NCBI GenBank assembly: GCA_030430205.1
Contig: JAUIGE010000021.1
Span: 1 to 64,000 of the forward strand
DNA: 64,000 bases
Reading direction: 5' to 3'
From: Bacteroidia bacterium
GTDB lineage: Bacteria; Bacteroidota; Bacteroidia; J057
Both the position numbers and the translations under genes were made by a program. The notes under the pieces were generated by a model that was not told the DNA's origin, searched no databases, and saw only the letters and a list, made by a program, of their open reading frames with translations. Shown in pieces: positions 4,368 to 46,081 of this stretch. Position 1 is the stretch's first letter; each line of letters opens with the position of its first letter.

Positions 4368-4379
4368 AAAGACAACAAA

Positions 4380-5594: not shown

Positions 5595-5604
5595 TGATTT
5601 CACG

Positions 5605-6201
5605 ATGTATTTATTCATATATCTAATCCTTTACTTCTTCTTAGTATTCTTTCTAAGGTCCTATTTGCTTTGGAAAAAGACTAAGGTTAACCCCTTAACA
5701 TTCAACAAAGGGGACGACGCTCATGGCTATAATGGGAAAGTATTTGGCTTTATTTCCGTATTGGAATTAGTGGTTGTTTCTATCTATGCCTTCGCTCCGC
5801 ATGGGTATCAATACCTTTTACCTTTTTGGTACTTAGAAAATGACACCTTAGCTGTGATAGGTTGGGGCTTATTAATCCTATCCTTGATCCTGGTTTGGAT
5901 TGCTCAATCTCATATGAGGGAATCCTGGCGTATTGGAATTGACGAAGAAAACGAAACGGAGTTGATTACAAGCGGCTTCTTTTCCGTTTCCAGAAACCCC
6001 ATTTTCTTAGGAATAATGATAGCTAATATCGGTTTGTTCTTGTTGCTGCCCAATGCATTCACTTTGCTTATCATTTCACTTTCTTCCATTAGTATTAATA
6101 CTCAAATACGATTGGAAGAAGCGTTTTTGATTGAGCCGTTTGGTGAAAAGTATGAGCAATACAGGAAAAACGTAAAACGGTGGCTTACCTTAAAATTTTA
6201 A
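5605..6201 (+). CDS. CzcN-like isoprenylcysteine methyltransferase-family membrane protein
   Basis: Membrane protein of 198 residues with about four hydrophobic segments (near 1-17, 45-65, 78-100 and 130-155). The C-terminal half has the ICMT/PEMT signature: an Arg-Asn-Pro turn (SRNPIFLG, near 129) followed by an acidic/aromatic tail with EEAFL and YEQYRKNVKRW. CzcN in Cupriavidus metal-resistance operons belongs to this family, but its reaction in metal resistance is not established. It starts 10 bases after the adaptor and ends 3 bases before the P-type ATPase start, so it is clearly within the efflux operon. Confidence 0.8.
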   Translation: MYLFIYLILYFFLVFFLRSYLLWKKTKVNPLTFNKGDDAHGYNGKVFGFISVLELVVVSIYAFAPHGYQYLLPFWYLENDTLAVIGWGLLILSLILVWIAQSHMRESWRIGIDEENETELITSGFFSVSRNPIFLGIMIANIGLFLLLPNAFTLLIISLSSISINTQIRLEEAFLIEPFGEKYEQYRKNVKRWLTLKF

Positions 6202-6204
6202 TAA

Positions 6205-8226
6205 ATGGAGAGTAAAGAACATATACATATCTACAATAGTACTGGCAAGCAAATATGCTGTTCATTGGAGCAGAAAATAGACAGCAAAACACCTCCCCCT
6301 TTATTGCACGAAGCAAATAGTAATAAAGATGGCCATACCCATTCACATAGCCATTCTGGTGGCAGTGGTCATTGGAAAGCGTATTATCCTGCTATTGGTA
6401 GCTTTATACTTTTGATATCAGGGATCGGACTCGATTTTTTCGATGTCGCATTCTTCAAAGGTTGGTTGAGAATAATTTGGTATGTAATTGCTTACATACC
6501 TGTTGGCTTACCAGTAGTTAAAGAAGCGTTTGAAGCCCTTAAGCAAGGTGAAATATTTACAGAGTTCTTCTTAATGAGTATTGCCACGATTGGGGCCTTT
6601 GCTATCGGTGAGTACCCGGAAGGTGTAGCTGTGATGCTATTCTATGCTGTTGGAGAATTATTTCAAAGTGCAGCCGTAAGGCGAGCAAAAGATAACATTA
6701 AAGCACTCTTGGATGTCAGGCCAAAAATTGCAAATGTATTCAGAAATGGATCTTTTGTTGAGGTCAACCCAAGTGATGTAAATATTGAAGAAACCATACA
6801 AGTCAAAGTTGGCGAAAAAGTGCCATTAGATGGCACTTTACTTTCTGAGAAGGCAAGCCTTAATACAGCGGCCATAACAGGTGAAAGTAAGCCGCAAAGC
6901 ATTTTGTATGGAGAAAATGTCTTGGCGGGATCTATAAATATGGAAGGGGTAATTGAGGTTAAAACTACCAAACTATTTAATGATAGTTCGGTAGCGAGAA
7001 TATTGGAGTTAGTGCAAAATGCTACTGCTAAGAAAGCGAAGACAGAATTGTTGATACGAAGGTTAGCAAAAGTATATACACCCATTGTCGTGTATTTAGC
7101 TATTGGCGTCTGTTTTTTGCCATACTTTTTTGTTGATGATTATATCTTCTCAGATTGGTTATACAGGGCACTGATTTTCTTGGTAATCTCTTGTCCTTGC
7201 GCCTTGGTTATTTCTATTCCGTTGGGCTATTTTGGGGGACTTGGTGCAGCGTCTAAAAATGGTATTTTATTCAAGGGCGCAATGTATTTAGACGAACTGA
7301 AGAACGTCAATACTATTGTGATGGACAAGACTGGTACTGTTACGAAGGGGGTATTTAAGATTGACGAAATCAAAACTTTTGGAGCATGGAAGAAAGAAAC
7401 AATGATGCCCTTGTTGTTGTCAATAGAATCCAAATCTACTCACCCCATTGCCAAGGCTATTTTGCAGTATGAATCTTCACAATCTATTCCAGATGCATCA
7501 GACGTAAAAGAAATTGCCGGAAAGGGGTTGACAGGTCTTGTAAATAGCAAAAAAATAATTGTTGGCAATCAAAAACTGATGCAGCAATTCAATATTGAAA
7601 CCCCACAGGAAATAGCAGAGATCGTAGAATCTGTTGTTTTAGTAGCAATCGATGGAGATTTTGCAGGATTTGTAACAATTGCAGATGAGTTAAAAGAAGA
7701 CGCTCAAGAATCTATTTCTGCTTTTAAGGAAATAGGTATAAAACTGCTAATGATGTTATCAGGTGATAAAAACAGCATCACCCAAAAAGTAGCACAAAGC
7801 TTAGGTATACAACATGCCAAAGGAGGTTTGCTGCCAGAAGATAAACTCAACGAAGTAGAATTATTGAAGCAAAACAAAACGGGTAAAATCGCTTTTATCG
7901 GAGACGGGATCAATGATGCACCCGTTTTAGCTGCAAGTGATGTCGGCATAGCAATGGGGGCAATGGGTTCTGATGTCGCCATAGAAACTGCTGATGTTAT
8001 TATCCAAACTGATCAGCTTTCAAAAGTGATTACAGGCATTCAAATCGCTAATTCTACCCAAAAAATCATTTGGCAGAATATCGTTTTGGCATTTGGTATA
8101 AAGATTATCGTTTTGATACTTGGGGCAGGTGGTTTAGCGACAATGTGGGAAGCTGTTTTTGCAGATGTAGGCGTTGCGTTGTTAGCTATTTTAAATGCTG
8201 TAAGATTACAACGAATGAATTGGTGA
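6205..8226 (+). CDS. P1B-2-type heavy-metal-translocating ATPase (Zn/Cd/Pb class)
   Basis: P-type ATPase of 673 residues that would pump divalent soft metals from the cytoplasm. Visible motifs are the transmembrane Cys-Pro-Cys at 330-332 in the context SCPCALVIS, phosphorylation site DKTGT at 374-378, a Ser-Thr-His-Pro dipeptide region for nucleotide binding, and the hinge GDGIND at 566-571. The text after CPC (IPLGYFGGLG) is typical of the Zn/Cd group rather than Cu pumps. There is no N-terminal HMA fold. Instead residues ~45-55 form a His-rich segment (HTHSHSHSGG) that may bind metal. It closes the Czc-type operon, 3 bases after the CzcN-like gene. Confidence 0.92.
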   Translation: MESKEHIHIYNSTGKQICCSLEQKIDSKTPPPLLHEANSNKDGHTHSHSHSGGSGHWKAYYPAIGSFILLISGIGLDFFDVAFFKGWLRIIWYVIAYIPVGLPVVKEAFEALKQGEIFTEFFLMSIATIGAFAIGEYPEGVAVMLFYAVGELFQSAAVRRAKDNIKALLDVRPKIANVFRNGSFVEVNPSDVNIEETIQVKVGEKVPLDGTLLSEKASLNTAAITGESKPQSILYGENVLAGSINMEGVIEVKTTKLFNDSSVARILELVQNATAKKAKTELLIRRLAKVYTPIVVYLAIGVCFLPYFFVDDYIFSDWLYRALIFLVISCPCALVISIPLGYFGGLGAASKNGILFKGAMYLDELKNVNTIVMDKTGTVTKGVFKIDEIKTFGAWKKETMMPLLLSIESKSTHPIAKAILQYESSQSIPDASDVKEIAGKGLTGLVNSKKIIVGNQKLMQQFNIETPQEIAEIVESVVLVAIDGDFAGFVTIADELKEDAQESISAFKEIGIKLLMMLSGDKNSITQKVAQSLGIQHAKGGLLPEDKLNEVELLKQNKTGKIAFIGDGINDAPVLAASDVGIAMGAMGSDVAIETADVIIQTDQLSKVITGIQIANSTQKIIWQNIVLAFGIKIIVLILGAGGLATMWEAVFADVGVALLAILNAVRLQRMNW

Positions 8227-8407
8227 TGATTGTTTCTGGTGTATTGGCTTAATAAAGTATAAATCTGAGTAGCTTTTTGTGAGACAGTCTTAGGCCTGCC
8301 AGATGACCTGAGTAAGCAAAATAATAGAACTCTTTTCAAAAATTCCATAACAGAATTACAACTGATGGACTGCACCTTTGTGCCTAAGTCTTTCACTCAA
8401 TTAAGTT

Positions 8408-10651
8408 ATGGTTTCCACTAATATAGATTTTGCAAAAGAGGAAGTAATCAAAAAGTCCTTTCCAGTAGTGGGAATGAGCTGCGCAGTCTGTGCCTCAAGT
8501 GTAGAATCCATTTTAAATGATACGGAGGGAGTTATTGAAGCAAATGTCAATTTTGCCAGTAATACGGCTTTAGTATCGTATAAAAAAGGCCATTCACCCC
8601 AAACATTTCAGCATGCTTTACAAGCCGTTGGATATGATTTGATTACAGACGAAATCAATGCTGAAGTTTTGCAGGAAGAATCCCATGAAAAGTTTCTAAA
8701 AGGACTTCGGTATAGAACAATATGGTCTGTATTGTTGACAACACCCGTTTTTGTGTTGGGGATGTTTTTTATGAATTGGGCAGCCACCCCATGGATATCT
8801 TTGGTTTTGTCTATTCCGGTTTTATTTTGGTTTGGTAGAAACTTTTATATCAATGCCTATAAGCAAGCCAAAATAGGGAAAGCAAATATGGACACTTTGG
8901 TGGCGCTCAGTACGGGAGTTGCTTTTTCCTTTAGTTTGATCAATACCATATTTCCTTCCTTCTTACTTTCTCAAGGAATAGAGCCGCATATTTACTATGA
9001 GGCAGCAACGGTCATCATTACATTCATTTCAATAGGGAAACTTCTCGAAGAAAAAGCAAAAGCAAGTACCTCGGGAGCACTCAAGAAACTGATCGGGCTT
9101 CAAGCTAAAAGGCTAAAAAGTATAATTGATGGCGAGGAAGTAGAAATTCCTATTGAAACGGTTCAGGAAGGATATGAAATTGTCATTCGCCCTGGTGAAA
9201 AAATCCCTGTTGATGGTAAAGTGAAAAACGGAAAATCTTTTGTTGATGAGAGCATGTTGACGGGGGAACCTATTCCCGTTGAGAAGACCTTGGGCTCATC
9301 CGTTTTTGCCGGCACGATCAATCAAAATGGGAGTTTTCATTTCATTGCAGAAAAGGTAGGGAGTGATACTTTTCTTTCGCACATAATACAGAAGGTCCAA
9401 GAAGCTCAGGGGAGTAAGGCACCTGTGCAAAAATTGGTAGATAAAATTGCAGGGGTTTTTGTTCCCACAGTACTGGGTATTGCCATTTTGACTTTCCTAA
9501 TCTGGATGTTTGTAGGGGGTGAAAATGCCTTTACACATGCGCTACTCAATGGTATAGCAGTTCTCGTAATTGCATGTCCTTGTGCTTTGGGCCTGGCTAC
9601 TCCCACGGCAATTATGGTTGGAGTAGGAAAAGGAGCAGAAAATCAGATTTTGATCAAAGATGCTGAAAGCCTTGAAATCGGAACTCAGGTTAATACTATC
9701 GTTTTAGATAAAACTGGAACTATTACAGTGGGAAAACCGACTGTTACAGAAATTTTTTGGGCCGATGCTCCCATTAATAAGGAGCATCAAGCTATGCTGC
9801 TAGCGATGGAATCTCGCTCTGAACATCCGCTTGCTGAAGCTGTTGTTACATATTTACAGGATAAAGGCGTGCAGGCTTCCAACCTTCAGCTACTCCATAG
9901 TATAAGCGGAAAAGGGATCGAAGCTGCCAATCAAGAGGGCGATTACTTTTACGTAGGGAATCAACGGTTAATAGAGGAGCAAAAAATAAATATTCCTCAG
10001 CGAATTACTGTTAAAGCCAAAGCATGGCAGTCCCAGGCAAAAACAGTTGTGTTTTTTGCTGACTCAGAACGAATCTTAGCTATTCTGGCTTTAGCAGATA
10101 AGATCAAAACAAGCGCACATTCAGCGGTGCAAGCTATGCTCAGTCAAGGACTTGACGTTCACATGCTTACGGGAGATACCATCCATACTGCAAGTGTGGT
10201 TGCAGAGCAAGTGGGGATCACTCATTTCGAGGCCGAAATGTTGCCAGACGACAAAGACAACTATATCAAGGCACTTCAAGCCTCGGGAAAGAAAGTCGCC
10301 ATGGTGGGAGATGGAATAAATGATTCTCAGGCATTGGCACGGGCAGATATGAGTATTGCTATGGGGAAAGGGACAGATATTGCGATGGATATAGCGCAAA
10401 TAACGTTGATCACCACTGATCTACAAGCTATCCTAAAGACGCTGAAATTGTCCCATAAAACGATAACTGGGGTTAAGCAAAACCTGTTTTGGGCATTTGT
10501 TTATAACATCATCGGTATTCCGATTGCCGCAGGAATTCTATATCCCATCAATGGTTATTTGCTTGACCCCATGATTGCAGGGGCAGCAATGGCCTTTAGT
10601 TCTTTGTCTGTTGTTGCCAATAGTTTAAGGCTGAAAATAAGGCCATTGTAA
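8408..10651 (+). CDS. copA: Copper-exporting P1B-1 ATPase CopA
   Basis: Cu(I) efflux ATPase of 747 residues. One N-terminal heavy-metal-associated domain carries GMSCAVC with Cys25 and Cys28. Eight predicted membrane helices contain the CPC motif at 390-392, in the [12 protein letters not shown] context typical of copper pumps. The phosphorylation site DKTGTIT begins at Asp434, an SEHPLAEA loop follows, and [11 protein letters not shown] is the hinge. The gap of 181 bases before it separates it from the Zn/Cd-type operon, so it may have its own promoter, though I see no convincing one. It leads a run of copper genes extending to 18.6 kb. Start codon at 8408 places the HMA domain near residue 15, as usual. 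Confidence 0.95.
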
Positions 10652-10983: not shown

Positions 10984-11367
10984 ATGCTTAGGCAATTTTT
11001 ACATATTTCCCTTTCTATTCTTCTATTGAGCTCCACTGCTGGAGTTACAATCAAGAGGCATTTCTGCCTTGGAGAACTGAAATATGCAAGCTTGAATATT
11101 TGGGCCCCACCCTGTTGTGGGGAAAAGTCAGAAATGCGTTCAAATTGTTGTAAGGATGAATATGCTTTTCTTCAACTTGAAGACGATTTCCAATCCCAAG
11201 TATTTGTAAGCCTTATTTATCCTGAGTTTCAGATTTCTTTTCCCCCCTTAACGGATATTAAGTTATTAGGAGAAGATATTAGCTCGACCCTCCCTCATTA
11301 TTGTAATTATAAGCCACCTCTCATATATGAGGATGTATTTCTCCTCATACAGACATTTCTAATATGA
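10984..11367 (+). CDS. HYC_CC_PP-family small Cys-rich protein
   Basis: A 127-residue secreted or membrane-anchored protein with an N-terminal hydrophobic segment (residues 4-20). The Cys/His pattern is His26-x-Cys28, Pro42-Pro43-Cys44-Cys45 and Cys55-Cys56. A second Pro-Pro region near 83 (FPPLTD) and another near the C-terminus match the small Bacteroidota family named HYC_CC_PP for those motifs. The paired cysteines and the position between an HMA chaperone and a DUF3347 lipoprotein suggest periplasmic copper binding. No experimentally known function is available to me. Confidence 0.6.
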   Translation: MLRQFLHISLSILLLSSTAGVTIKRHFCLGELKYASLNIWAPPCCGEKSEMRSNCCKDEYAFLQLEDDFQSQVFVSLIYPEFQISFPPLTDIKLLGEDISSTLPHYCNYKPPLIYEDVFLLIQTFLI

Positions 11368-11501: not shown

Positions 11502-12047
11502 ATGAATTACTTAAAATTTATTATTTCTTGTCTGTTTGTTGCGACCTCCATTCTGAGTGTTACTTCTTGTCAGTCTGGAGATAAATCAAATGAACAAGGG
11601 CAGGAAATCGCATCTTCATCCGAGTCTGGCCCTGATATTTCTGCTGTTCTGGATCAATATTTCAACCTTAAGGATGCCTTAGTTGAAACAAATGCTCCTT
11701 CGGGTAAGGCTAATGCTCAAAACCTACTTTCAGCAATTGAAACTTCCTCTTCTGGTCTGAATGACTCGGAGCTCGTGAATCAATTAAATTCACTTAAAAC
11801 CGCAGTACAGCCCATCGCTTCTTCAGAAAATATTGAAGAGCAGCGAGCTGCTTTTGAAAAAGCGACCGCAAGTATGTTGACCATCATCAAAAAGCATAAA
11901 CTCACAGATAAAACACTCTATTATCAGTTTTGTCCTATGGCGTTCAATGGCAAAGGGGCCTACTGGATCAGCAACGAAAAAAAGATCATGAATCCTTATT
12001 TCGGCGACAGAATGCTCCACTGTGGCAAGGTAACAGAAGAACTTTAA
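11502..12047 (+). CDS. DUF3347 lipoprotein, putative copper-binding periplasmic protein
   Basis: A 181-residue protein with a lipobox ending at Cys23 and a low-complexity linker. The helical DUF3347 core (residues ~40-125) starts near ISAVLDQYFNLKDALV. The C-terminal tail has FCPMAF with Cys144 and Met146, then GDRMLHCG with Met171 and Cys174. This tail resembles the extra C-terminal domain found on many CusB adaptors and NosL-like proteins, where Cys and Met bind Cu(I). It sits between the Cys-rich small protein and the first MbnP-like gene, supporting a periplasmic copper carrier role. Metal binding is inferred. Confidence 0.75.
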   Translation: MNYLKFIISCLFVATSILSVTSCQSGDKSNEQGQEIASSSESGPDISAVLDQYFNLKDALVETNAPSGKANAQNLLSAIETSSSGLNDSELVNQLNSLKTAVQPIASSENIEEQRAAFEKATASMLTIIKKHKLTDKTLYYQFCPMAFNGKGAYWISNEKKIMNPYFGDRMLHCGKVTEEL

Positions 12048-12089: not shown

Positions 12090-13064
12090 ATGAAAAACAA
12101 GAACATTCTACTCGTAGCAGTCCTTCTCCTGGCACTGAATTGTGCATGGGGGCAAAAAGATGTCAAATTCCATATCAAGCATCTGCTGGATGGGAACTCA
12201 TTTGCCTTTAATACTGCTTCTCAAAACAACATGGGGCATGATTTCGATGTATCGCGTCTTGAGTACTACATTTCTGGAATTGAAATTACCCATGATACAG
12301 GCAAAGTAACCCAGGTTAATGATTTTTGGATTTTGGTCAACCCCAGCCAGCAAACGCTGGTGGATCTGGGCAATTTTAATATTGACGAGGTAGAGGCTAT
12401 CTCATTTCATATTGGAGTTGAAAATGCATATAACCACCTGGACCCTTCTCAATATGCTGTCACGCATCCTTTAGGACCCAAAGCCCCTTCTATGCATTGG
12501 GGCTGGGCAGCAGGCTATCGTTTTGTTGCGATTGAAGGAAAAAGCGGCGCAAGCCTGGCATACGATTATCAGTTGCATGGGCTTGGAGATAATAATTATT
12601 TCAAAACTGTCATTACAGCTCCTAAACTTACTCCCTTTGCAAATGGTGTCGTGATAGGGTTGGACGCAGAATATACAGGTGTCTTACAGGCAATCAACCT
12701 GAGTAGTGGGGTAATCGAGCATGGAGAATACAGAGAGGCAAGACAAGCCTTGCTTAACTTCCAAAATCATGTATTCACTGGAGAAGTGACTAACACAGCC
12801 ATAGGTGATGAATTCGCTAAGCAATCATTCCAGCTTTACCCGAATCCCACAAGTAATGGAATCAGCACGCTCTCTATAGGCGAAGTGTCAACTGAAAAAT
12901 TCACTGTTGTCATAAGTGATTTAATTGGTAGGAAAATTTTCCAAACGGAACTGCTTATCGGGCAAAAAGAAGTAAATATTCCTGTACATGAAGCTGGATT
13001 ATATATTGTTAGCCTCTTGAAGGAAGGTAGGGTTGTGGCTACCCAAAAATTGATTTCAAAGTAA
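12090..13064 (+). CDS. MbnP-family copper protein with T9SS sorting domain, copy 1
   Basis: Secreted 324-residue protein. A signal peptide (1-21) is followed by an MbnP-family domain (~23-220) with LEYYISGIEI, NHLDPSQYAVTHPLGP and the aromatic motif Met135-His-Trp-Gly-Trp139 followed by GYRF. The C-terminal ~75 residues form a T9SS type A sorting domain beginning at LYPNPTSNG, which implies passage through the outer membrane. In methanotrophs MbnP binds Cu(I) through a Trp that MbnH converts to kynurenine. The Trp residues here are candidates only, since the modified residue cannot be identified by eye. The MbnH-like gene starts 22 bases downstream, a tight pair. Paralogs lie at 16635 and 17632. 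Confidence 0.82.
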   Translation: MKNKNILLVAVLLLALNCAWGQKDVKFHIKHLLDGNSFAFNTASQNNMGHDFDVSRLEYYISGIEITHDTGKVTQVNDFWILVNPSQQTLVDLGNFNIDEVEAISFHIGVENAYNHLDPSQYAVTHPLGPKAPSMHWGWAAGYRFVAIEGKSGASLAYDYQLHGLGDNNYFKTVITAPKLTPFANGVVIGLDAEYTGVLQAINLSSGVIEHGEYREARQALLNFQNHVFTGEVTNTAIGDEFAKQSFQLYPNPTSNGISTLSIGEVSTEKFTVVISDLIGRKIFQTELLIGQKEVNIPVHEAGLYIVSLLKEGRVVATQKLISK

Positions 13065-13086
13065 TACACCCCAATTTTTTTGAACA

Positions 13087-14175
13087 ATGAAAAACCTTTA
13101 TTACCTCCTGGCAATCGCAATTCTAGTGATAGTTGCATGCCAACCCGATGAACCAGATCCCATAGTAGATCCAGCTGTATATGATGCCACGCCTTATTCT
13201 CTGGAATATGGCAACTTACCTCCCCCTACTATTCCTGGAGATAATGTTTTGACAAAGGAAGGGGTGAAGCTGGGCCGCATGCTGTTTTTTGAAACCAAGC
13301 TCTCCAAAGATGGCAGTCAATCTTGTTCGAGTTGTCACCGTCAAAAACATGGATTTTCAGATAGTCTGAAGTTTTCCCTGGGAGTTGAAGGACTACAGGG
13401 AGGGCGTCAGGCGATGCCGATTTTCAATATGCTCTGGCATACCAATGAGTTTTTCTGGGACGGTAGAGCACATTTATTGCGTGATCAGGCACTGTTGCCT
13501 ATCCAGGATCCATTGGAGATGAATGAGACCCTTGAGAATGTGGTTGCTAAATTGACCCATGAGCAGGATTATACAGACCAGTTTATTCGTTCATTTGGAG
13601 ATAGCGTCATTACCTCTGAGCGCATCTCATTGGCCCTGGAGCAGTTTATGAATTCGATAGTTTCATACCAGTCCAAATACGATAAGGTTTTGGCCGGTGA
13701 AGCGACCTTGACAGAAAGCGAAGAAAGGGGAAGGGAGCTTTATTTTGCTGAGTATAACCCATTCTTTCCGTTGGTTTCTGGAGCAGACTGCCAGCATTGT
13801 CATGGTGGAGATAACTTTGAGAATGACCAGTATATGAACAATGGGCTGGACTCAGACCTCGATTTTGATGATTTTGGCAGAGAGAAGGCCACAAACGATC
13901 CAGCTGATCGCGCAAAATTCAAAGTTCCTTCTTTACGCAACGTAGAGGTTACTGCCCCTTATATGCACGATGGTAGATTCCAAACCCTGGAAGAAGTTAT
14001 CGACCATTATAATGAAGGAATCCAGAACTCTTCTACTGTCGATCCTGCTATTGAAAATACCCGACAGATGGGTTTGTTGCTAACAGAGCAAGACAAAAAG
14101 GACCTTGTCAATTTTTTAAAAACACTTACAGATCAATCATACCTATCCAATGAAAAGTACAAGAGCCCTTTTTAA
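13087..14175 (+). CDS. MbnH-like di-heme peroxidase-family lipoprotein
   Basis: Di-heme c-type enzyme of the bacterial cytochrome c peroxidase/MauG/MbnH group, 362 residues. The lipobox Cys is at 18, so it should be lipid-anchored in the periplasm. The two heme sites are C80-S-S-C-H84 and C235-Q-H-C-H239. Family landmarks include FFWDGRAHLL, QDPLEMNE and YMHDGRFQTLEEVIDHYN. In the known pair, MbnH oxidises a Trp of MbnP to kynurenine. Here it follows an MbnP-like gene by 22 bases and is the only such enzyme for three MbnP-like proteins. An ordinary H2O2-reducing peroxidase is the alternative; the MbnP linkage argues against it. Confidence 0.85.
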   Translation: MKNLYYLLAIAILVIVACQPDEPDPIVDPAVYDATPYSLEYGNLPPPTIPGDNVLTKEGVKLGRMLFFETKLSKDGSQSCSSCHRQKHGFSDSLKFSLGVEGLQGGRQAMPIFNMLWHTNEFFWDGRAHLLRDQALLPIQDPLEMNETLENVVAKLTHEQDYTDQFIRSFGDSVITSERISLALEQFMNSIVSYQSKYDKVLAGEATLTESEERGRELYFAEYNPFFPLVSGADCQHCHGGDNFENDQYMNNGLDSDLDFDDFGREKATNDPADRAKFKVPSLRNVEVTAPYMHDGRFQTLEEVIDHYNEGIQNSSTVDPAIENTRQMGLLLTEQDKKDLVNFLKTLTDQSYLSNEKYKSPF

Positions 14176-14235
14176 ATAGGATTAATTACCAATAAAGGTC
14201 CCATTAACTTGAGATGGAGCCTTTTTAATAACCAA

Positions 14236-16563
14236 ATGATGAAAAAACAATACTTTATTTTTATTCTCTTCCTGGCTTTTTCTTTTTCTGGATTTAGCCA
14301 ATACTACTACATCCCTCATCTTTCTCCTGGTGAAAACCCTGGAGCACTCAATGCCGACGGAGAATTTCCAGTTGGAGGGGGATTAGCTGCTGGGTGGACC
14401 ACCATTTTAGCTGCCGCCTCCCCTTCAGGAACTGCCTCTACGATTCAGTCTATTCCTTTTAATTTTAGCTTTAATGGGGCACCAAATACTCAATACAGAG
14501 TTAACAACCATGGCGTTTTGACTTTTGATGTGCTCAGTCCGCTTCGTCCAGGTCCGAACAATAGTGCATTACCCTCAACTCAAATTCCTGATAAATCAAT
14601 CTGTGTCTGGGGATTATCTGGTACAGGGCCGAACGATAATATTGTTTCCAAAACATTTGGTACGACTCCCAATAGACAGCATTGGGTCATGTTCTCTTCC
14701 TATACCTTTCAGGGATCATGGACCTATTGGGCTATGGTTTTTGAAGAAACAAGAAATGCTATTTACATCGTGGATCAACGCCACCAGAACACATATTCCG
14801 GTTTGACTGTTGGACTTCAGATCGACAGCTTGAACGCTATTCAGCTTCCAGCTTCTCCAAACGTAGCAACGATTGCAGGCGGAAGTAGCGCAGCAGGAGA
14901 CAATGCCTATTATGAGTTTATCCCGGGCATGCAGCCAGATTATGATATAGATGTAAAACATTTTGAATTGGCTCCATTTCCAAATATTGCTGATGGCCCC
15001 ATTGAATTACATGGAGAACTAACAAATCTTGGGGCTCGGCTTGTTACAAGCTATGATCTCAGTTACCGCGTAAATGGCGGAGCGATACAGACTGCAACTA
15101 TTTCGACCAATATAGTGCCTGGAGGAAATGAAGAGTTTAGTTTCCCAACTCCATGGGCTCCTGCTATGGCAGGAAATTATTCGGTAGAGTTATGGACAAG
15201 CAATATCAACGGGAATCCTGATCAAAACCCTTCTAATGACTCGGCAACAGCTAGCATCGTTTTATCTCCTGCAATCCCCAATATTATTGATAATTACCTG
15301 ACTCAATTTTCGCTAACTAAAGTAGTTGCCAATGGAGCCAATCAACTCAATCAGCCCATGGACCTGGACTTCCATCCTGACTTAAGCAGAAAGGAGCTTT
15401 GGGTGATTAATTATGATACAGAAAATAGTGGTGGGAGTACTGTGACTTTTTCAAATGTAGGCATGCCAAATCAAAGCCATATCTGGAAAAGAGATGGAAA
15501 TGCCTGGCACTTTATGTCTCTTCCTACAGGAATAGCTTTTAGCGACAATGGTAATTTCGCCAACTCTCCAGGAGTCTTTGACTCAAATCACAATGGAGGA
15601 GATCCATTTACCGGGCCAGCACTTTGGTCTAGTGATCCGGCTATATATGCCCAACCCTCTGGAGGGAATGGAAGCCACCTTGATATGCTGCATGCCAGCC
15701 CGAATTGTTTGGGAGTCGCTCATGAAAAGGACAATGCTTTTTGGGTGGTTGATGGTTTTAATGGTGATGTTGTCAGGTATGATTTTGGGGGAGACCATGG
15801 CCCGGGGAATGCAGATCATGACGATGGGGGGATCCGGAGAGTAACAGACTTTAGAATCAGCATGCTCAATAGCTCGACACCTTCCCATTTGGTATTGGAT
15901 AAAGCAAGTGGATGGTTGTATATCGTTGATATTGGAAATAAGAGAATACTGAGAATGGACGTCAATAGCGGCCAGGCGGCTGGTTCTCCTATCTGGGGGC
16001 CTTTTGAGACCTTAGCAGAATATTCAAACCTGGGTAATACGACCTGGGAGGTAGTAGTTGACTCTGGTCTGGTTCAGCCAACGGGGATAGATATTATTGG
16101 CGACAAACTGATTGTGGGAGATTATTCAAACGGTCATGTCATCATTTATGATTTGAGTGGGCCTACTGCTCAGGAAATGAAAAGAATTGATACGGGCTTC
16201 CCGGGATTGACAGGGATAAAAATAGGGCCTGAAGGATATATTTGGTATGTAAACAAGCTGAGAAATGAATTGGTAAAAGTGGAGTTAGCGGGTGTTGCTA
16301 TTGACCCTGTGCTTGCTACAAACCAACTTCTTGTTTATCCGAATCCTGCCTCTGATAAAATATGGATTGAAACCTCAAATTTAGACTTAACACATGCTGT
16401 AGCCCAGTTGATTGACATTCATGGAAAAATAGTCAATCAATTTGAGCTAATGGTTTCCGAGAAGCAAAAGCTTGACTTAGGAGAGATGCCAAGGGGTGTT
16501 TATATGTTGAAGGTGATCCTGGAAAATCGCCAGACCATTTCCAAAAAGGTGATGATCCATTAA
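14236..16563 (+). CDS. Secreted beta-propeller (NHL-like) protein with CARDB-like domain and T9SS tail
   Basis: Large secreted protein of about 775 residues; I place the start at the Met-Met-Lys-Lys (14236 or 14239), not the upstream ATG at 14209, because the signal peptide begins there. An N-terminal beta-rich region is followed by a CARDB-like Ig domain (ELHGELTNLG, SYDLSYRVNGG). Next comes a six-bladed-propeller-like region with NHL features (QPMDLDFHPD, GWLYIVDIGNKRILRMD, QPTGIDIIGDKL). The last ~75 residues are a T9SS sorting domain starting at VYPNPASDK. It lies between the MbnH gene (33 bases from that stop to the 14209 ATG, 60 to the start used here) and the second MbnP copy, so a role in the same surface copper system is likely but unproven. 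Confidence 0.75.
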   Translation: MMKKQYFIFILFLAFSFSGFSQYYYIPHLSPGENPGALNADGEFPVGGGLAAGWTTILAAASPSGTASTIQSIPFNFSFNGAPNTQYRVNNHGVLTFDVLSPLRPGPNNSALPSTQIPDKSICVWGLSGTGPNDNIVSKTFGTTPNRQHWVMFSSYTFQGSWTYWAMVFEETRNAIYIVDQRHQNTYSGLTVGLQIDSLNAIQLPASPNVATIAGGSSAAGDNAYYEFIPGMQPDYDIDVKHFELAPFPNIADGPIELHGELTNLGARLVTSYDLSYRVNGGAIQTATISTNIVPGGNEEFSFPTPWAPAMAGNYSVELWTSNINGNPDQNPSNDSATASIVLSPAIPNIIDNYLTQFSLTKVVANGANQLNQPMDLDFHPDLSRKELWVINYDTENSGGSTVTFSNVGMPNQSHIWKRDGNAWHFMSLPTGIAFSDNGNFANSPGVFDSNHNGGDPFTGPALWSSDPAIYAQPSGGNGSHLDMLHASPNCLGVAHEKDNAFWVVDGFNGDVVRYDFGGDHGPGNADHDDGGIRRVTDFRISMLNSSTPSHLVLDKASGWLYIVDIGNKRILRMDVNSGQAAGSPIWGPFETLAEYSNLGNTTWEVVVDSGLVQPTGIDIIGDKLIVGDYSNGHVIIYDLSGPTAQEMKRIDTGFPGLTGIKIGPEGYIWYVNKLRNELVKVELAGVAIDPVLATNQLLVYPNPASDKIWIETSNLDLTHAVAQLIDIHGKIVNQFELMVSEKQKLDLGEMPRGVYMLKVILENRQTISKKVMIH

Positions 16564-16578
16564 TTAGTTTCTTTATTC

Positions 16579-16617
16579 AAACTTGAGGTTGTTACTTTTG
16601 GTAACAATCTCAAGTTT
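16579..16617 (+). terminator. Strong hairpin terminator after the propeller gene
   Basis: A 17-base arm (16579-16595) pairs with 16601-16617, with one G-T wobble and a 5-base loop, and the right arm ends in a short T-run. It lies 16 bases after the propeller stop and 18 before the next gene. It may end the first copper transcript or only partly attenuate it. Confidence 0.7.
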
Positions 16618-16634
16618 TTCAAATACCGTGCGGA

Positions 16635-17612
16635 ATGAATAAAAAAAATACTTTTTTCCTGACTTGCTTTCTCCTGCTATTTACCTGTCTTCACGCTCAA
16701 AAAGACATAAAATTAGAGATCCGACATTGGCTTGGAAACGTCCCTTTTGCTTTGGAATTCAACCTCCAAAATAATATAGGCTATGATTTCAATGTATCTC
16801 GCCTGGAGTACTATATTTCTGAAATTGAGATTACACATGATTCTGGTCAAGTGACTTCCATCAATGATTTTTGGTTATTAATTAATCCCAGTCAACCAAC
16901 TCTTGTCGAGTTAGGTAGTTTAGCTGTTGACCAGATTGAGGCTATATCATTTTATGTAGGAGTAGACCCAGCCCATAATCACCTTGATCCCTCCCTATAT
17001 GCTGCTTCTCACCCACTGGCACCAAAATCTCCCACTATGCATTGGGGATGGGCTTCTGGGTATCGGTTTATAGCAATTGAAGGGCAGTCAGGATTAAATT
17101 TTAGAAGTGAATATCAACTTCATGGCCTAGGAGATGGAAACTATTTCAAGACTGAAATTGCGAATCCACTATTAACCTCGATGGGTGACAGTATAATCAT
17201 CAGTTTGGATGCAAACTATGCCGCAATCCTCCAGGGGATGGATTTAAGTCAACCTATGATCATTCATGGTGAGAGAAACGAAGCTCAAAGGGCGCTCCTT
17301 AATATGCGAGATTTTGTCTTTTCTCCTGCCAATCCCACGACAGCTATCGAGGATGATGGATTTGGGTTCAGCCTTAAAGTATTTCCCAATCCTAGTAATG
17401 GTGAGCAAATTCACTTGAAACTACCAGAACGTACGCATCCTGGATATAGAGTTATAGTTTCTGATGTGCTGGGGCGTCATTTACTTGATCAAAAGATAAG
17501 CTCTAGGGAAAGAGAAATGTCTTTTTCTTTGAAGAGAGCAGGTGTTTACTTGGTTTCAGTTATACATAATGAGGAAGTTTTGGTTTCGAAGAAAATTGTA
17601 GTGACTTTTTAG
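16635..17612 (+). CDS. MbnP-family copper protein with T9SS sorting domain, copy 2
   Basis: A 325-residue paralog of the protein at 12090 with the same layout: signal peptide ending at ~20 (CLHAQ), MbnP-family domain, and a T9SS tail that begins at VFPNPSNGE. The aromatic motif Met135-His-Trp-Gly-Trp139 plus GYRF falls at exactly the same residue numbers as in copy 1. LEYYISEIEI and NHLDPSLYAASHPL are also shared. It follows a hairpin terminator by 18 bases and precedes copy 3 by 19 bases. The two copies probably arose by duplication; no second MbnH-like enzyme accompanies it. Confidence 0.8.
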   Translation: MNKKNTFFLTCFLLLFTCLHAQKDIKLEIRHWLGNVPFALEFNLQNNIGYDFNVSRLEYYISEIEITHDSGQVTSINDFWLLINPSQPTLVELGSLAVDQIEAISFYVGVDPAHNHLDPSLYAASHPLAPKSPTMHWGWASGYRFIAIEGQSGLNFRSEYQLHGLGDGNYFKTEIANPLLTSMGDSIIISLDANYAAILQGMDLSQPMIIHGERNEAQRALLNMRDFVFSPANPTTAIEDDGFGFSLKVFPNPSNGEQIHLKLPERTHPGYRVIVSDVLGRHLLDQKISSREREMSFSLKRAGVYLVSVIHNEEVLVSKKIVVTF

Positions 17613-17631
17613 AAAGTTATCTTGATTCAAG

Positions 17632-18630
17632 ATGAGAATGAAAAAATGTATTAAGCTTGCTTTCCTGTTCTTGATTTTTGGGCCACCATTTAGTTATGGT
17701 CAAATTCCTATTAAGTTGGAAATCAATCACAAATTGGGAACTGATCGCTTTCACATGCACCAAATGACCCAAAATAATCTTCAACAAAACTTTGAAGTCA
17801 CAGGTCTGCGATATTACCTATCTGGCTTTAGTATTATTCATGACTCAGGTCAGGTAATTGAAATTCCTGATTTATTGTTTTTTGTAGATGTGAGCCTGGA
17901 TTCTACAGGCCCTAATTTAGTTGAGTTAGGAGAATTTAATGTGAATAAAATTGAAGCCATTTCTTTTTATATGGGAGTAGACTCTGCCAGAAATCATTCA
18001 GACCCAGCCTCTTATTCTATGGGTCACCCCCTCGCACCAAAATCCCCTTCGATGCATTGGGGATGGGCAAATGGGTATTTTTTCCTCTCTCTGACAGGAA
18101 AGAGCGGAACCACCCTCGATAAAGTGATAGACCTACAGTGCTTAGATGATGATAATTATTATCAGGCAATTGTGCAAAATCCTTTGGTTACGGACTATAC
18201 CGATGAACTTCTTATCAGTCTGGATGCTGATTATGAAGGCCTATTAAAAGATATGGACATTAGTGAAGGAGTCAGTCTTCACGGACCATTTTTATGGGCG
18301 AAAGATGCTTTGGTTAATGCTTCTCAATTTGTATTTAAACCTTCAACCTCACCCTTCTACACATCTTTGTCTGAGGATGCTTCTCCAAATTCATTTTTAT
18401 GGAGTCCTAACCCTGTTATGGCGGGGCAAGAAATCTTCTTGAAGACTGATGGAGTAAACCAAAATATGGAAGTGATTGTCAATACTTTAGATGGGAAAAA
18501 AATGTCCTCAGAGAAAAGTATCTTTTTGAGCCAAGAAGCATCAATACAACTTTTTCATAAAGGCATATATGTAATTCAGTTGGTGGTTGATGGAAAGATA
18601 CTTTCATCATCACGAGTAGTGGTCTATTAG
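17632..18630 (+). CDS. MbnP-family copper protein with T9SS-like tail, copy 3 (divergent)
   Basis: Third MbnP-family paralog, 332 residues, the most diverged of the three. A signal peptide is followed by LRYYLSGFSI, NHSDPASYSMGHPLAP and the motif Met141-His-Trp-Gly-Trp145, where the next residues read NGYFF instead of GYRF. A Cys-containing loop (DLQCLDDDNY) replaces the HGLGD of the other copies. The end has a weak sorting-domain start (WSPNPVMAGQ), so T9SS export is less certain here. ATGs at 17632 and 17638 are both possible starts; the first is kept. Confidence 0.75.
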   Translation: MRMKKCIKLAFLFLIFGPPFSYGQIPIKLEINHKLGTDRFHMHQMTQNNLQQNFEVTGLRYYLSGFSIIHDSGQVIEIPDLLFFVDVSLDSTGPNLVELGEFNVNKIEAISFYMGVDSARNHSDPASYSMGHPLAPKSPSMHWGWANGYFFLSLTGKSGTTLDKVIDLQCLDDDNYYQAIVQNPLVTDYTDELLISLDADYEGLLKDMDISEGVSLHGPFLWAKDALVNASQFVFKPSTSPFYTSLSEDASPNSFLWSPNPVMAGQEIFLKTDGVNQNMEVIVNTLDGKKMSSEKSIFLSQEASIQLFHKGIYVIQLVVDGKILSSSRVVVY

Positions 18631-20229: not shown

Positions 20230-22503
20230 TTAAAATCTGCCAGATAAACCTCCTCCCGGACCAAATCTATTGTCATAGCTGGCCATTAAAGAAAAATTCC
20301 TGAATAGGAAATATTCTACCCCAGCGGACCATGTCGTTTCACTCCTAAAATCGTTTGTTAACTCGTTTACCCAGCCAAAATCTGCCTGGTATTCGAAGTT
20401 CCCGAAAATGGCAGTTCGAGGAAAGATCATAATCGCTCGTCTTAACCTGATTTCAGGTCGTAATTTATTATCCACTCTTACATCAAGATTGAACATAAAT
20501 GGAGTAAAGAGTCGAATACCGACAATAGCGGTTGTTGAAATATCATCCAGACTCTTTTCTATTTCATTTTCTACGTTCACTCCAGCAAATACCCGGAAAT
20601 AGTCGGTTAAATAGCGTTCGTAGGTAAATTCGGCTTCCATATTTTGATTGTAACCGTACTCCGCATTCAGGTTGAACTGGTTTCGGGTATTGGAGGATAC
20701 CAGGTTCAGCCCAGTCATATGGGAAGCAAGATCCGCTACTCCCCACGAGTAATATTTATCCATTTCGTGGATCAATTTTTTTAACGGATAACCTTCCATG
20801 CGCTGGTCACGAGGTGTACCATAACTGTAAACCCGCGCCATACCAGCAACCATATGATAGAGTATATGACAATGGAAGATCCAATCACCAGATTCATTTG
20901 CATCAAATTCTATGGTTACCTTCTGCATAGCGGGGACATTGACCGTGTGTTTTAAAGGGGAGTATTCACCGTTTTTATTAACGACCCGGAAGAAGTGACC
21001 GTGCAGGTGCATAGGATGGTGCATCATGGTAAGGTTGTTTAGCGTTATGCGCACCACCTGTCCCTTCTCGATTTTTATCTTATCCGCCTCGGATATTGGT
21101 ACCCCGTTCATGCTCCAGATGTAACGCCACATGTTTCCTGTAAGATTGAGGAACACCTCTTTGACCGTTTTATTTTGCGAAAAGTTGGTTTTTTCCGGCG
21201 ATTTCAGGTAATCATAATTATATTCCGACCAGATGTTCATGCCACCCATATCGGTGCTATCCTTTGACATTTTCCCACTAATTTGCATAGTATCAGGCAT
21301 CGCCTCATGTTTATGTCCCTTCGTACCAGGATGAACCATTTCCATCTCCATGCCCACTTCTTCATCCATCTGCATGCCCCATTTGGCTTTCATTTTATAA
21401 GGCTCTTCGTTTGAAGGATTTAATTTCATAGCTGGTGCCCCCATACGCATATCCATTTTGGCCATTTTCATCATCATGCCAATTTTATCTGGACGCGGTA
21501 CTATCGGGGCAGGTATAATATCGCCCCTGCCCAGGTAGGCTGATGAATGTCCAGAACCATCCTGGGCCGTGGCCCTGAATTCAATCTTGCCATTTTCAGG
21601 AATGGTGACAATAAAGTCATAGGTTTCTGCTATGGCAATAAAGGTTTTGTTATGTTTGACGGGAACTACATTTAACCCATCAGCCGCTACCAAGAGGGGA
21701 GCTTCACCACCAAAAGTCATCCAGAATTGTGAGGAAGCGGCACCATTAATAATGCGTAAACGTACCTTTTCACCTGGTTCAAATTGCTGATAGTCCTGTA
21801 CTTGCTGGCCATTATTAAGAAAGGCAGGGTAATATATATCGGCAATATCGGCACTTTCCATGCGCTGTCTCCAAAAATTGAGTTGTGCACCTAAACCACC
21901 TCGGGATATAACCTGATTAAGGGGTGTGGCTGTTCCTTTTTTAATATTGTACCACTCATTGCCACGTTTTAAGTTCCGTAATACATTCATTGGCTTTTGA
22001 TTAGTCCAGTCAGAAAGCACCATCACCAATTCTTTATCGTACTCCAGTGTTTCTTCCTTTGGCTCAATTACAATAGAACCATACACGCCACTTTGCTCTT
22101 GCAACATGGTGTGGGAGTGGTACCAATAGGTTCCTGCCTGCTTAAGGGGAAACTCATATTTTTGCGTTTCGCCAGGCCTAATTGGCGGGGTAGTGAGATA
22201 AGGCACCCCATCATAAAAATTAGGTAGCAGTAGTCCATGCCAGTGGACGGAAGTCTCTTCATCCATTTCATTTTTCACATAGATCACAGCATTTCCACCT
22301 TCATTAAAGCGGATGGTGGGGCCGGGAATAGTTCCGTTAACGGTCATGCCAATCATATTTTTCCCAGCTTTATTTACCATTTCCTTATCAATGGTAAGGT
22401 GATATACCATGGTATCGGATTGAGCCACTAAATTGCCGTTAATCGCAATTATCAGTGTCATGAATAATAGGAGTTGCGTTTTGATAGCATTAAATAATTT
22501 CAT
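20230..22503 (-). CDS. Multicopper oxidase (CopA/PcoA-like) fused to an outer-membrane barrel domain
   Basis: A 757-residue secreted protein. Three cupredoxin domains carry the copper ligands: H87-W-H89, H129-S-H131, HPMHLHGH near 495-502 and HCHILYH near 541-547. A Met/His-rich insert (~344-425, with MMMKMAKMDMRMG) resembles the Cu(I)-binding segments of CueO and PcoA and should promote Cu(I) oxidation. The C-terminal ~165 residues (from about 590) alternate polar and aromatic residues in long strands and end GGGLSGRF. They look like a CopB/PcoB-type barrel. In proteobacteria CopA and CopB are separate, so this is a domain fusion. It reads away from the decayed region beyond 22.5 kb. Confidence 0.88.
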   Translation of the reverse strand: MKLFNAIKTQLLLFMTLIIAINGNLVAQSDTMVYHLTIDKEMVNKAGKNMIGMTVNGTIPGPTIRFNEGGNAVIYVKNEMDEETSVHWHGLLLPNFYDGVPYLTTPPIRPGETQKYEFPLKQAGTYWYHSHTMLQEQSGVYGSIVIEPKEETLEYDKELVMVLSDWTNQKPMNVLRNLKRGNEWYNIKKGTATPLNQVISRGGLGAQLNFWRQRMESADIADIYYPAFLNNGQQVQDYQQFEPGEKVRLRIINGAASSQFWMTFGGEAPLLVAADGLNVVPVKHNKTFIAIAETYDFIVTIPENGKIEFRATAQDGSGHSSAYLGRGDIIPAPIVPRPDKIGMMMKMAKMDMRMGAPAMKLNPSNEEPYKMKAKWGMQMDEEVGMEMEMVHPGTKGHKHEAMPDTMQISGKMSKDSTDMGGMNIWSEYNYDYLKSPEKTNFSQNKTVKEVFLNLTGNMWRYIWSMNGVPISEADKIKIEKGQVVRITLNNLTMMHHPMHLHGHFFRVVNKNGEYSPLKHTVNVPAMQKVTIEFDANESGDWIFHCHILYHMVAGMARVYSYGTPRDQRMEGYPLKKLIHEMDKYYSWGVADLASHMTGLNLVSSNTRNQFNLNAEYGYNQNMEAEFTYERYLTDYFRVFAGVNVENEIEKSLDDISTTAIVGIRLFTPFMFNLDVRVDNKLRPEIRLRRAIMIFPRTAIFGNFEYQADFGWVNELTNDFRSETTWSAGVEYFLFRNFSLMASYDNRFGPGGGLSGRF

Positions 22504-23815: not shown

Positions 23816-24946
23816 TTGAGTATTTCATCCATTAAAAATACTGTAAGAAATAGGCTTTGGGGAAAAGCTGCTGGTAGATGTCAATATGAAGGCTGCAATA
23901 TTCCTTTATGGAAAGACAATCTTACAAAGGCAGAATTTAACACATCCTATATAGCTCATATTATTGCAGATAAGCCCACAGGCCCTCGGGGAGATAAAGT
24001 TCTCTCCAAAAAACTAAAAAGTGATATTTCAAATTTAATGCTTCTGTGCGATATCCATCACAGGAAAATTGACATTGACGATGTTGAGGGACATTCTATT
24101 GAACGCCTTCGATCAATGAAAAGATTTCATGAGCAGAGAGTTGAATTACTTTCTTCCATAATGCCAGATAGGCAGAGCCATTTGTTATTCTTTGGTGCAA
24201 ATATTGGGAAACATCAATCACCTCTATCATTTTTAGAAGCTGCAGAGGCTATGGTCTCAGAAAATGGAAGATACCCTGCGGATTCTTATGCCGTTGAAAT
24301 TGGATTGCAAAACAGTAGCTTAAACGATGCAACAACAATATTTTGGGAAGCAGAACAACAAAATTTAATCCACGAATTTAATAGTAAAGTCCTTTTAAAG
24401 ACCCATAAATCTGGCATCAATCATATTTCTGTATTTGCTCTTGCTCCCCAACCTCTGCTTATCCAGCTAGGAATCCTCTTGGGTGAAATAATTTCTGTTG
24501 ATACTTATCAAAGGCTTAAAGAGCCTGTTACTTGGAAATGGCAAAAGGGTGAAATGCCTGTTGAATTTGCACTAAAATACAATGGAAAACTTGGTGAAAA
24601 AGTAGCACTTAAACTTGCCCTTAGCGCCACTATAACCGATTCTCGAATAGAACAAGTCTTAGGATCGACCTGCCCGATTTGGTCTTTATCTCACCCCAAC
24701 CCTCATAACGATTTTTTAAGATCTAAAGCTCATCTTCAGTCTTTTCGTGAAAATATGCGAATGGTATTTGACAAAATAAAGGCGATACATGGAGAAGATG
24801 CAACCATCTTAATATTTCCAGCGATGCCCGTATCAGCGGCAATCGAATTAGGCAGAGTTTGGATGCCCAAGGCTGACTTACCCTTAGAGGTATTTGATCA
24901 AAATAAACTGAATGGAGGATTTTTTTCAACAATAAAAATAAAATAA
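23816..24946 (+). CDS. cap5: CBASS effector: HNH endonuclease with SAVED domain (Cap5-like)
   Basis: A 376-residue two-domain effector. The N-terminal HNH/beta-beta-alpha-metal nuclease has a Cys22/Cys27 zinc pair, His48 in AHIIADKPTGPRGD, and Ser-Asn73-Leu with Cys78 and His81-His82 at the end of the motif. The C-terminal ~230 residues match the SAVED nucleotide-sensor fold by position and by context (SHPNPHNDFLRSKAH; a terminal FPAMPVSAAIELGR). Known Cap5 proteins tetramerise when a cyclic nucleotide binds SAVED and then degrade DNA to abort infection. Translation must begin at TTG (23816), since no ATG precedes the HNH. The CD-NTase starts 13 bases downstream. Confidence 0.85.
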   Translation: MSISSIKNTVRNRLWGKAAGRCQYEGCNIPLWKDNLTKAEFNTSYIAHIIADKPTGPRGDKVLSKKLKSDISNLMLLCDIHHRKIDIDDVEGHSIERLRSMKRFHEQRVELLSSIMPDRQSHLLFFGANIGKHQSPLSFLEAAEAMVSENGRYPADSYAVEIGLQNSSLNDATTIFWEAEQQNLIHEFNSKVLLKTHKSGINHISVFALAPQPLLIQLGILLGEIISVDTYQRLKEPVTWKWQKGEMPVEFALKYNGKLGEKVALKLALSATITDSRIEQVLGSTCPIWSLSHPNPHNDFLRSKAHLQSFRENMRMVFDKIKAIHGEDATILIFPAMPVSAAIELGRVWMPKADLPLEVFDQNKLNGGFFSTIKIK

Positions 24947-24959
24947 TCAAAGTAAAACA

Positions 24960-26171: not shown

Positions 26172-26547
26172 AATGAGTCAGCTTTCAATTGCAAAGCAAA
26201 AAATGCTTCTTTGTCGTCTTTTTCCAGGAAAAAGTAGTGGATCACAAAGTTCACTTACTTGGACTGGACCCGTTTGGCCAAGTCCATTGTCAGTTACTTA
26301 TGATGTTCAAATAAAGTACACGCTTGGGAAGGCTCCTAAGGTTTTTGTTCTTTCTCCCGAGTTAATAGAAGCGAATCCCAAAATCCCTCATAGGTATGAT
26401 GATGGGTCACTTTGCTTGTATTTTGGGAAGGATTGGAATGCGGGTAAATATATTGCTCTTACCATTTTACCTTGGGCAACCGAATGGCTCCGACATTATG
26501 AATTTTGGCAGTTAACAGGAACTTGGAATGGAGGTGGTACTCATTAA
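26158..26547 (+). CDS. CBASS stand-alone E2-like protein (type II-short)
   Basis: A 129-residue ubiquitin-conjugating-enzyme-like protein. The catalytic region reads HRYDDGSLCLYF with presumed catalytic Cys86. The tail WATEWLRHYEFWQLTGTWN followed by GGG is characteristic of bacterial E2 proteins in CBASS. Full type II systems have a fused E1-E2 (Cap2) plus the peptidase Cap3; here only an E2 is present, as in the type II-short class, where the E2 modifies the CD-NTase to prime it. Starts at 26158 or 26173 are both possible; the first gives the overlap with the CD-NTase. Confidence 0.8.
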   Translation: MGKSEMSQLSIAKQKMLLCRLFPGKSSGSQSSLTWTGPVWPSPLSVTYDVQIKYTLGKAPKVFVLSPELIEANPKIPHRYDDGSLCLYFGKDWNAGKYIALTILPWATEWLRHYEFWQLTGTWNGGGTH

Positions 26548-31541: not shown

Positions 31542-31552
31542 ATCTATTCCTA

Positions 31553-33076: not shown

Positions 33077-33096
33077 ATATTTTGTCCGTTCTTATA

Positions 33097-33366: not shown

Positions 33367-33386
33367 AATATTCTTTATTTATGTTG

Positions 33387-36953: not shown

Positions 36954-36964
36954 AAAAATGAAAT

Positions 36965-37516: not shown

Positions 37517-37538
37517 AAGGATAATAAATTGGGGGTTA

Positions 37539-41735: not shown

Positions 41736-41777
41736 GGTGATGAAATTTGGAGGCCTTGCGTAATAGAATATGATATG

Positions 41778-42383: not shown

Positions 42384-42385
42384 GC

Positions 42386-46062: not shown

Positions 46063-46081
46063 GGGGGGGGAAGGAAGCGTT

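Follow-up and report, generated by a model that had tools for sequence, protein, structure and literature searches.

We characterized a putative copper-handling operon in a stretch of 64,000 nucleotides of DNA from a Bacteroidia bacterium of the GTDB lineage J057 (assembly GCA_030430205.1, contig JAUIGE010000021.1, positions 1 to 64,000 of the forward strand), which is referred to here as the window. The operon encodes three MbnP-like proteins, one MbnH/MauG-like di-heme enzyme and a protein that may be propeller-like. We lean towards the reading that this is a copper-handling operon within a metal-efflux island, whose MbnPs would be matured by di-heme enzymes, exported by the type IX secretion system (T9SS) and used at the cell surface to buffer Cu(I) in the service of tolerance. 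The five genes that bear most directly on this reading are the following:

12090 to 13064, plus strand: MbnP paralog 1, 324 residues, with a T9SS type A tail (PF20243 93.8 bits, TIGR04183 34.4 bits)
13087 to 14175, plus strand: MbnH/MauG-like di-heme enzyme of class B, placed in the class B clade described below (TIGR04039 237 bits, PF03150 179 bits)
14209 to 16563, plus strand: possibly propeller-like protein with a T9SS tail (PF18962 51.9 bits, TIGR04183 40.6 bits); listed start TTG
16635 to 17612, plus strand: MbnP paralog 2, 325 residues, with a T9SS tail (PF20243 92.3 bits, TIGR04183 34.3 bits); M-H-W-G-W and the conserved His present
17632 to 18630, plus strand: MbnP paralog 3, 332 residues, with a weaker T9SS tail (PF20243 89.2 bits, TIGR04183 27.1 bits); LHG replaced by LQC

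The three paralogs lie exactly where the original prediction had placed them, and the MHWGW motif is present in all three open reading frames (ORFs), each of which scores above the PF20243 gathering score of 27 bits. Identity to paralog 1 is 47% for paralog 2 and 34% for paralog 3. An AlphaFold2 model of paralog 1 (pLDDT 93.7, from an input alignment of 85 rows) was compared with known structures, and the top ranks of a Foldseek search were six chains of 7l6g, the crystal structure of MbnP from Methylosinus trichosporium OB3b. Residues 21-235 of this model, the only paralog modeled for the purpose, aligned to 7l6g_C by VIA-align with a Z-score of 16.8 over 204 residues at a root-mean-square deviation of 2.9. 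By sequence, phmmer searches of the PDB listed no MbnP match with paralog 1, with the lipoprotein-like MbnP at C2 of the same genome or with a six-row profile; a profile built from 34 MbnPs reached 7l6g (E 1.8e-8) with the M-x-W-x-W motif and the downstream His aligned. The window proteins thus share with the M. trichosporium pair their fold, the Met-x-Trp-x-Trp motif with its His and a di-heme neighbor, and differ in carrying a T9SS tail and in reading MHWGW where 7l6g reads MAWNW. Since the genes from the DUF3347 gene at 11502 (see below) through paralog 3 lie on a single strand with gaps of 19 to 71 bases, they are likely to form one transcript, and a scan for promoters and terminators gave matches no more frequent than in shuffled sequence.

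The copper ligands of M. trichosporium MbnP are reportedly a His, a Met, solvent and a kynurenine made by MbnH from the first Trp of WxW, as Manesis et al. are said to have shown in 2021. The candidate Cu(I) site of paralogs 1 and 2 comprises M135, W137 (the first Trp of WxW) and H163. Its conservation was assessed in two samples: 80 named loci, kept of 157 confirmed, which were chosen by similarity to the window's own genome, are related to one another and belong to the Bacteroidota except for L042 ("bacterium") and L079 (a Phycisphaerales bin); and a profile-based sample of 247 genomes from the phylum of the window, presumably Bacteroidota. The residue alignment held 158 rows: the named loci supplied 84, and the profile-based sample supplied 74 out of 94 (the own genome's six included), retained because they have W-x-W. 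The named loci were partly selected by MHW[GN] and the MHWxW set is defined by its M, H and two W, so that the Trp residues, H136 and, within that set, M135 are conserved by construction; what is informative is the state of H163, N115, D118 and H211, together with that of M135 within the canonical set. Among canonical MbnPs (53 rows, under W-x-W selection only), Met135 was found in 96% and His163 in 100%, and among MHWxW MbnPs (101 rows) His163 was kept in 99 and N115, D118 and H211 in 99-100%. Other Bacteroidota MbnPs mostly carry M-x-W-x-W with Tyr, Phe or Met. These patterns bear on the suggestion that the paralogs have kept the MbnP fold without a metal site and serve, once secreted, as ordinary beta proteins for adhesion or scaffolding. 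We regard that as very improbable: His163 was not a selection criterion and is nonetheless almost always retained, and Met135, the two Trp and His163 are all present in paralogs 1 and 2, although paralog 3 and one other copy in the same genome have lost the conserved His.

These two proteins are the only rows of the 158 without His163, and both read LQC. In paralog 3, where LQC stands in place of LHG, the site is more likely a variant one, possibly using the neighboring Cys, or the protein a non-kynurenine relative. Strong matches to paralog 3 were confined, among 40 relatives (own genome included), to that genome and one genome of its genus, and its distribution is therefore patchy. The other protein, an orphan MbnP at C70 (L016:9570-10544), has no di-heme neighbor and adjoins several similar membrane proteins, which we take to be DUF2330-like.

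Export by T9SS was expected from tails on at least two paralogs and the propeller, and all three paralogs, together with the protein at 14209-16563, in fact pass the TIGR04183 cut-off of 23 bits, paralog 3 by less than the others; its tail falls below the corresponding Pfam cut-off (19.5 vs. 27 bits). The paralog 1 tail (residues 245-324) matches two T9SS C-terminal domains of known structure: that of mirolase (8qb1, Z-score 10.4) and that of NucA, seen in its complex with T9SS components (8glk, Z-score 9.2). With such tails, and with the SprA translocon encoded in the same genome, the window paralogs have the features of T9SS type A cargo and would be exported to the surface. The tail model matched 76 of the 85 members of one MbnP set (A4, 77 of them MHWGW) and 9 of the 14 members of another (A5, 12 MHWGW). 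In contrast, it matched no member of a group of 71 ORFs that lack MHWxW, of which 63 are recognized by the MbnP model. The short MbnPs of other Bacteroidota (e.g., L015 and L113; many lipoprotein-like) share PF20243, WxW and an adjacent di-heme enzyme with the window proteins. Unlike these, they lack the tail, mostly have a single enzyme and place the Trp motif in another context.

The window enzyme has the two CxxCH sites that had been predicted for an MbnH-like protein (CSSCH and CQHCH; C80-H84 and C235-H239), as well as a lipobox-like Cys18, W124 and Y308, the last two having roles (W124 at the bridging position) assigned by alignment. In the PDB it matches 6e1c best (E 6e-55); this entry is described there as a di-heme enzyme, and we take it to be M. 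trichosporium MbnH. The expectation of a single MbnH holds for the window and fails for the system as a whole, because related loci usually encode two enzyme classes, here called A and B, and class A is found on the same contig. Both classes lay within 2.5 kb of 62 of the 84 MbnPs in the named loci, with B only at 12, A only at 8 and neither at 2, in a count where some locus contigs end early. Among the 11 MHWxW MbnPs of the profile-based sample outside the own genome, 7 had both classes, 3 had A only and 1 had a divergent B. Paired adjacent enzymes were rare near non-MHWxW MbnPs, being seen at two places and at G109:C53:70029, where the enzymes are those of an MHWxW gene as well. In a tree, all 67 class A sequences formed a clade with 10 from the profile-based sample and 1 canonical partner (support 0.887), and all 68 class B sequences formed a clade with 7 from that sample (support 0.992); these sequences are 67 of 73 A and 68 of 73 B, short or ambiguous ones having been removed. 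Both CxxCH sites and a Glu are kept in every A, B and canonical sequence counted, and the Tyr that corresponds to Y308 in most of them. The classes part at the bridging-Trp position, as aligned to bacterial peroxidases and 6e1c: it is Trp in 68/68 class B and in 57 of 70 canonical partners (13 lack it), and in class A it is Arg in 56, Phe in 9, Ser in 1 and Lys in 1. When 14 genomes with fewer than two enzymes near the locus were examined, 12 encoded both classes, 2 only A (L037 and L048) and none only B, which makes class A look like the core partner and class B like an addition; 4 of the 12 have a divergent or split A gene, and when placed in the tree these (5 sequences) fall in the A clade with support of 0.923.

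Three further observations concern these enzymes. At L262:5222-6184 and L263:3621-4583, class A adjoins a second, more divergent MbnP, and the main locus there has B only. A MauG-like di-heme protein at L021:2738-4174 (C59 of the own genome) carries a T9SS-like C-terminal tail of its own, as judged by eye. Acidic residues after the lipobox-like Cys were considered as a hint of surface lipoproteins and set aside, since the means (1.28 for A and 1.67 for B, once sequences without such a Cys by the pattern used had been dropped, 14 from the 67 A and 22 from the 68 B) conceal a mixture in both classes.

Over both samples, the adjacent di-heme enzyme was recurrent. MbnP was present in 67 of the 247 genomes, at 94 places, and a di-heme gene lay within 3 kb at 85 of these (81 of 88 without the own genome). 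TIGR04039-like genes as such occur in 126/247 genomes, and the same model also matches in E. coli. No WxW was seen at 20 of the 88 places, an overestimate given that an overlapping non-MbnP ORF was taken at some of them (e.g., L106, L153, L160, and L166), and 14 of the 20 had a di-heme neighbor; one member of set A6 matched the di-heme model. The distance matrices of MbnP, A and B correlate (Mantel r 0.59-0.61, 0/999 permutations, 54 loci; 0.60 for the enzymes against MbnP), which shared descent alone could produce. The alternative to be weighed against these data is that no kynurenine is formed at all, the di-heme enzymes being either peroxidases that shield the envelope against copper-driven H2O2 or catalysts that modify W137 or W139 in another way, such as by a cross-link or quinone. 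MauG is among the PDB relatives of these enzymes, as are bacterial cytochrome c peroxidases, no class A enzyme has Trp at the bridging position, and some MbnP-like proteins without W-x-W have a di-heme neighbor. We nevertheless find this alternative quite unlikely in view of the recurrent adjacency, the correlated distances and the Tyr at the candidate axial position, which is kept in 67/68 class B and 66/67 class A sequences. This Tyr position is presumably that of the MauG axial ligand. A more elaborate form of our reading is that two modifications of the surface MbnPs precede T9SS export, one by class A as the core enzyme and one by class B as the accessory enzyme, with a kynurenine and a second modification (on W139 or H136) forming a new surface copper site for metal tolerance. 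This is a possible extension, and a rather doubtful one.

The genes flanking the operon point to metal efflux. They comprise:

42 to 10651, plus strand: metal-efflux setting upstream of the operon (PF00873 with PF02321, PF16576, PF00122, and PF00403)
10984 to 11367, plus strand: small Cys-rich protein of the HYC_CC_PP family (NF047658 57.2 bits, cut-off 28)
11502 to 12047, plus strand: DUF3347 lipoprotein-like protein (PF11827 56.4 bits, cut-off 25.5)
20230 to 22503, minus strand: CopA-type multicopper oxidase downstream of the operon (TIGR01480 407 bits, cut-off 479; three Cu-oxidase domains above Pfam cut-offs)

The upstream set contains an RND pump fused to an outer-membrane efflux domain, a CusB-like protein, a small membrane protein (5605-6201) and two P-type ATPases, of which the second begins with an HMA domain. 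DUF3347 was also found at the C-terminus of a CusB-like protein at L057:1351-3015. A twin island on the same contig (C13, 123-137 kb) includes an MbnP with a T9SS tail, class A, and a class B enzyme 78% identical to that of the window, together with genes that resemble, by their family matches, an RND pump, TolC-like, CusB-DUF3347, HYC_CC_PP, DUF3347 and BNR-type proteins. Since the window keeps B alone with its three MbnPs, class A may act on these MbnPs in trans from the twin island. The genome encodes six MbnPs in total, among them the lipoprotein-like one at C2, which carries MHWNW and stands with one class A enzyme.

Beyond this genome, metal genes (RND, CusB, P-type ATPase, multicopper oxidase, HMA-MauE, and HMBD) were found in 24 of 56 named loci vs. 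none of 40 controls (Fisher 1.7e-7), the comparison being between the 56 of 80 loci of at least 15 kb and windows of 20 kb chosen by place in 15 genomes; at other MbnP loci (11 kb) they were found in 5 of 72. Of 78 named loci, 49 have an HYC_CC_PP gene upstream of MbnP, no more than 400 bp away in 41 cases and in the same orientation in 42; the family occurred in 38 of the 56 loci vs. none of the 40 controls. As a general MbnP neighbor it was rejected: in the 247-genome sample, own genome excluded, a profile that we built placed it within 4 kb of 1/11 MHWxW and 1/77 other MbnPs. The family is not specific to MbnP, because the NCBI model finds it in 74/247 genomes. Near some MbnP loci, we also noted a multicopper oxidase with its own T9SS tail (L101:6688-8400) and a fusion of HMA and MauE-like domains (L082:6899-7630).

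This setting suggests tolerance rather than uptake, and a mechanism can be proposed on that basis. After Sec-dependent transport through the inner membrane, the MbnPs would fold in the periplasm, where lipid-anchored di-heme enzymes, B from the window and A from the twin island, would oxidize W137 to kynurenine. This kynurenine, M135 and H163 would complete the Cu(I) site, and the type IX system would then carry the folded proteins to the surface or the medium. There they could retain Cu(I) ahead of its entry into the cell or on its way out, and would form a tolerance system together with the Cu-ATPase, the RND pump and the multicopper oxidase.

Several results weigh against this reading. The proposed searches with the curated NCBI models did return matches, all of them below cut-off: TIGR04052 gave 40, 40 and 35.8 bits for the three paralogs (cut-off 140), with the match confined to the WxW region, and TIGR04039 (cut-off 363) gave the score listed above for the window enzyme and 301 for the best of the own genome. 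Because both models match only in this way, the window proteins are best described, on sequence grounds, as a distinct subfamily rather than canonical equivalogs. The window has no class A gene, whereas all 14 genomes checked encode one. About 10 MbnP-like proteins without W-x-W adjoin a di-heme gene even when wrong ORFs are set aside, and gene partnership alone is therefore no proof of Trp oxidation. In addition, 32 of the 56 loci have none of the tested metal genes, in a test whose profiles were built from the same loci. Finally, CorA and MopE, the surface or secreted kynurenine copper proteins of methanotrophs, are reported to be copper-repressed and tied to copper uptake (PMC3912023; PMC3423442), which favors acquisition.

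For this last reason uptake remains a serious rival, in which Cu(I), when scarce, would be captured by surface MbnPs and delivered to an importer in the outer membrane. Such a role has been proposed for CorA and MopE, which are made under low copper. Some loci (L075, L082, and L098) have a TonB-receptor-like ORF and HMA proteins nearby. Across the loci, however, TonB-receptor-like genes (two kinds, with a profile from two locus clusters) were not enriched, at 8/56 loci vs. 4/40 controls, and the window and the twin island are full of exporters. We thus consider acquisition unlikely, and the acquisition or storage system first envisaged is not what the neighborhood suggests.

Placed among known systems, the operon is only partly new. 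The MbnP/MbnH pair is reported to be conserved far beyond methanobactin producers (PMC3621798), MbnPH-like genes are also reported in other copper operons (PMC9426467), and CorA and MopE are known examples of kynurenine-type copper proteins at the surface (PMC3912023; PMC3423442). The earlier description of MbnP and MbnH as periplasmic and tied to methanobactin was accordingly too narrow, although its statement that no methanobactin gene is present agrees with the lack of any match to MbnB (PF05114) in the whole genome, the tiny MbnA peptide not having been searched for. Relative to MbnP/MbnH, the kind found in the window usually comes with two di-heme classes, often has an HYC_CC_PP neighbor, scores below both curated cut-offs and was found without MbnB. 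The CorA/CorB and MopE/SACCP systems of gammaproteobacterial methanotrophs resemble the system proposed here in pairing a surface or secreted Cu(I) protein that contains a kynurenine with a partner of the di-heme peroxidase type (PMC3912023; PMC3423442). They differ in their ligands (Kyn-x-His and a second His), in the lack of T9SS and in their neighbors. CorA and MopE were not among the phmmer, Foldseek and VIA-align matches listed for paralog 1, which does not exclude similarity. To our knowledge, kynurenine copper sites have been shown in only a handful of methanotroph proteins. Among the matches listed by searches of the open full-text literature, which left most subscription papers outside their scope, no paper dealt with export of an MbnP by T9SS or with an MbnP served by two MbnH-like enzymes; as far as those matches go, the T9SS-exported two-enzyme form is new, and the pair itself, reported as widespread, is already known.

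The remaining member of the operon, at 14209-16563, probably starts at an ATG about 30 bases downstream of the listed TTG. It matches NHL at 17.2 bits, below the cut-off of 20, and propeller folds are among the Foldseek matches listed for its model, of which the general fold alone is usable (pLDDT 58.8); these matches hint that it is propeller-like. Homologues occur in 7 of the 80 named loci, and a second copy in the own genome (C30) is 59% identical. One His-rich stretch of the protein, NGSHLDMLH...DHGPG, is invariant or strongly conserved and hints at a metal site.

Farther along the window is a second RND metal-efflux-like set on the minus strand (28446-34571), with a pump, a membrane-fusion protein and a probable outer-membrane protein (33387-34571). 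Defense genes recognized by PADLOC include a cluster resembling the cyclic-oligonucleotide-based antiphage signaling system (23816-26547; HNH-SAVED effector, oligonucleotide cyclase, and E2-like protein) and type I restriction-modification genes (38703-46173). A TPR/CHAT-like pair, in which the CHAT label is our assumption, lies at 35487-38627, with no PADLOC match for 37539-38627. The G+C content is 0.39-0.43 in the first 36 kb and 0.46-0.49 later, and a phage-integrase family gene lies at 47671-48909. Because of this low G+C content and the integrase gene, the metal and defense genes of positions 1-49000 may constitute a genomic island.

In this bacterium, then, the MbnP fold appears to be combined with another pathway of export, with MauG-like enzymes of two classes instead of one, and with metal efflux. 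Because classes A and B occur in pairs, they lend themselves to a comparison of whether the bridging Trp is needed for the oxidation of protein tryptophan, and the T9SS tail should ease purification of the product from the surface or the medium.

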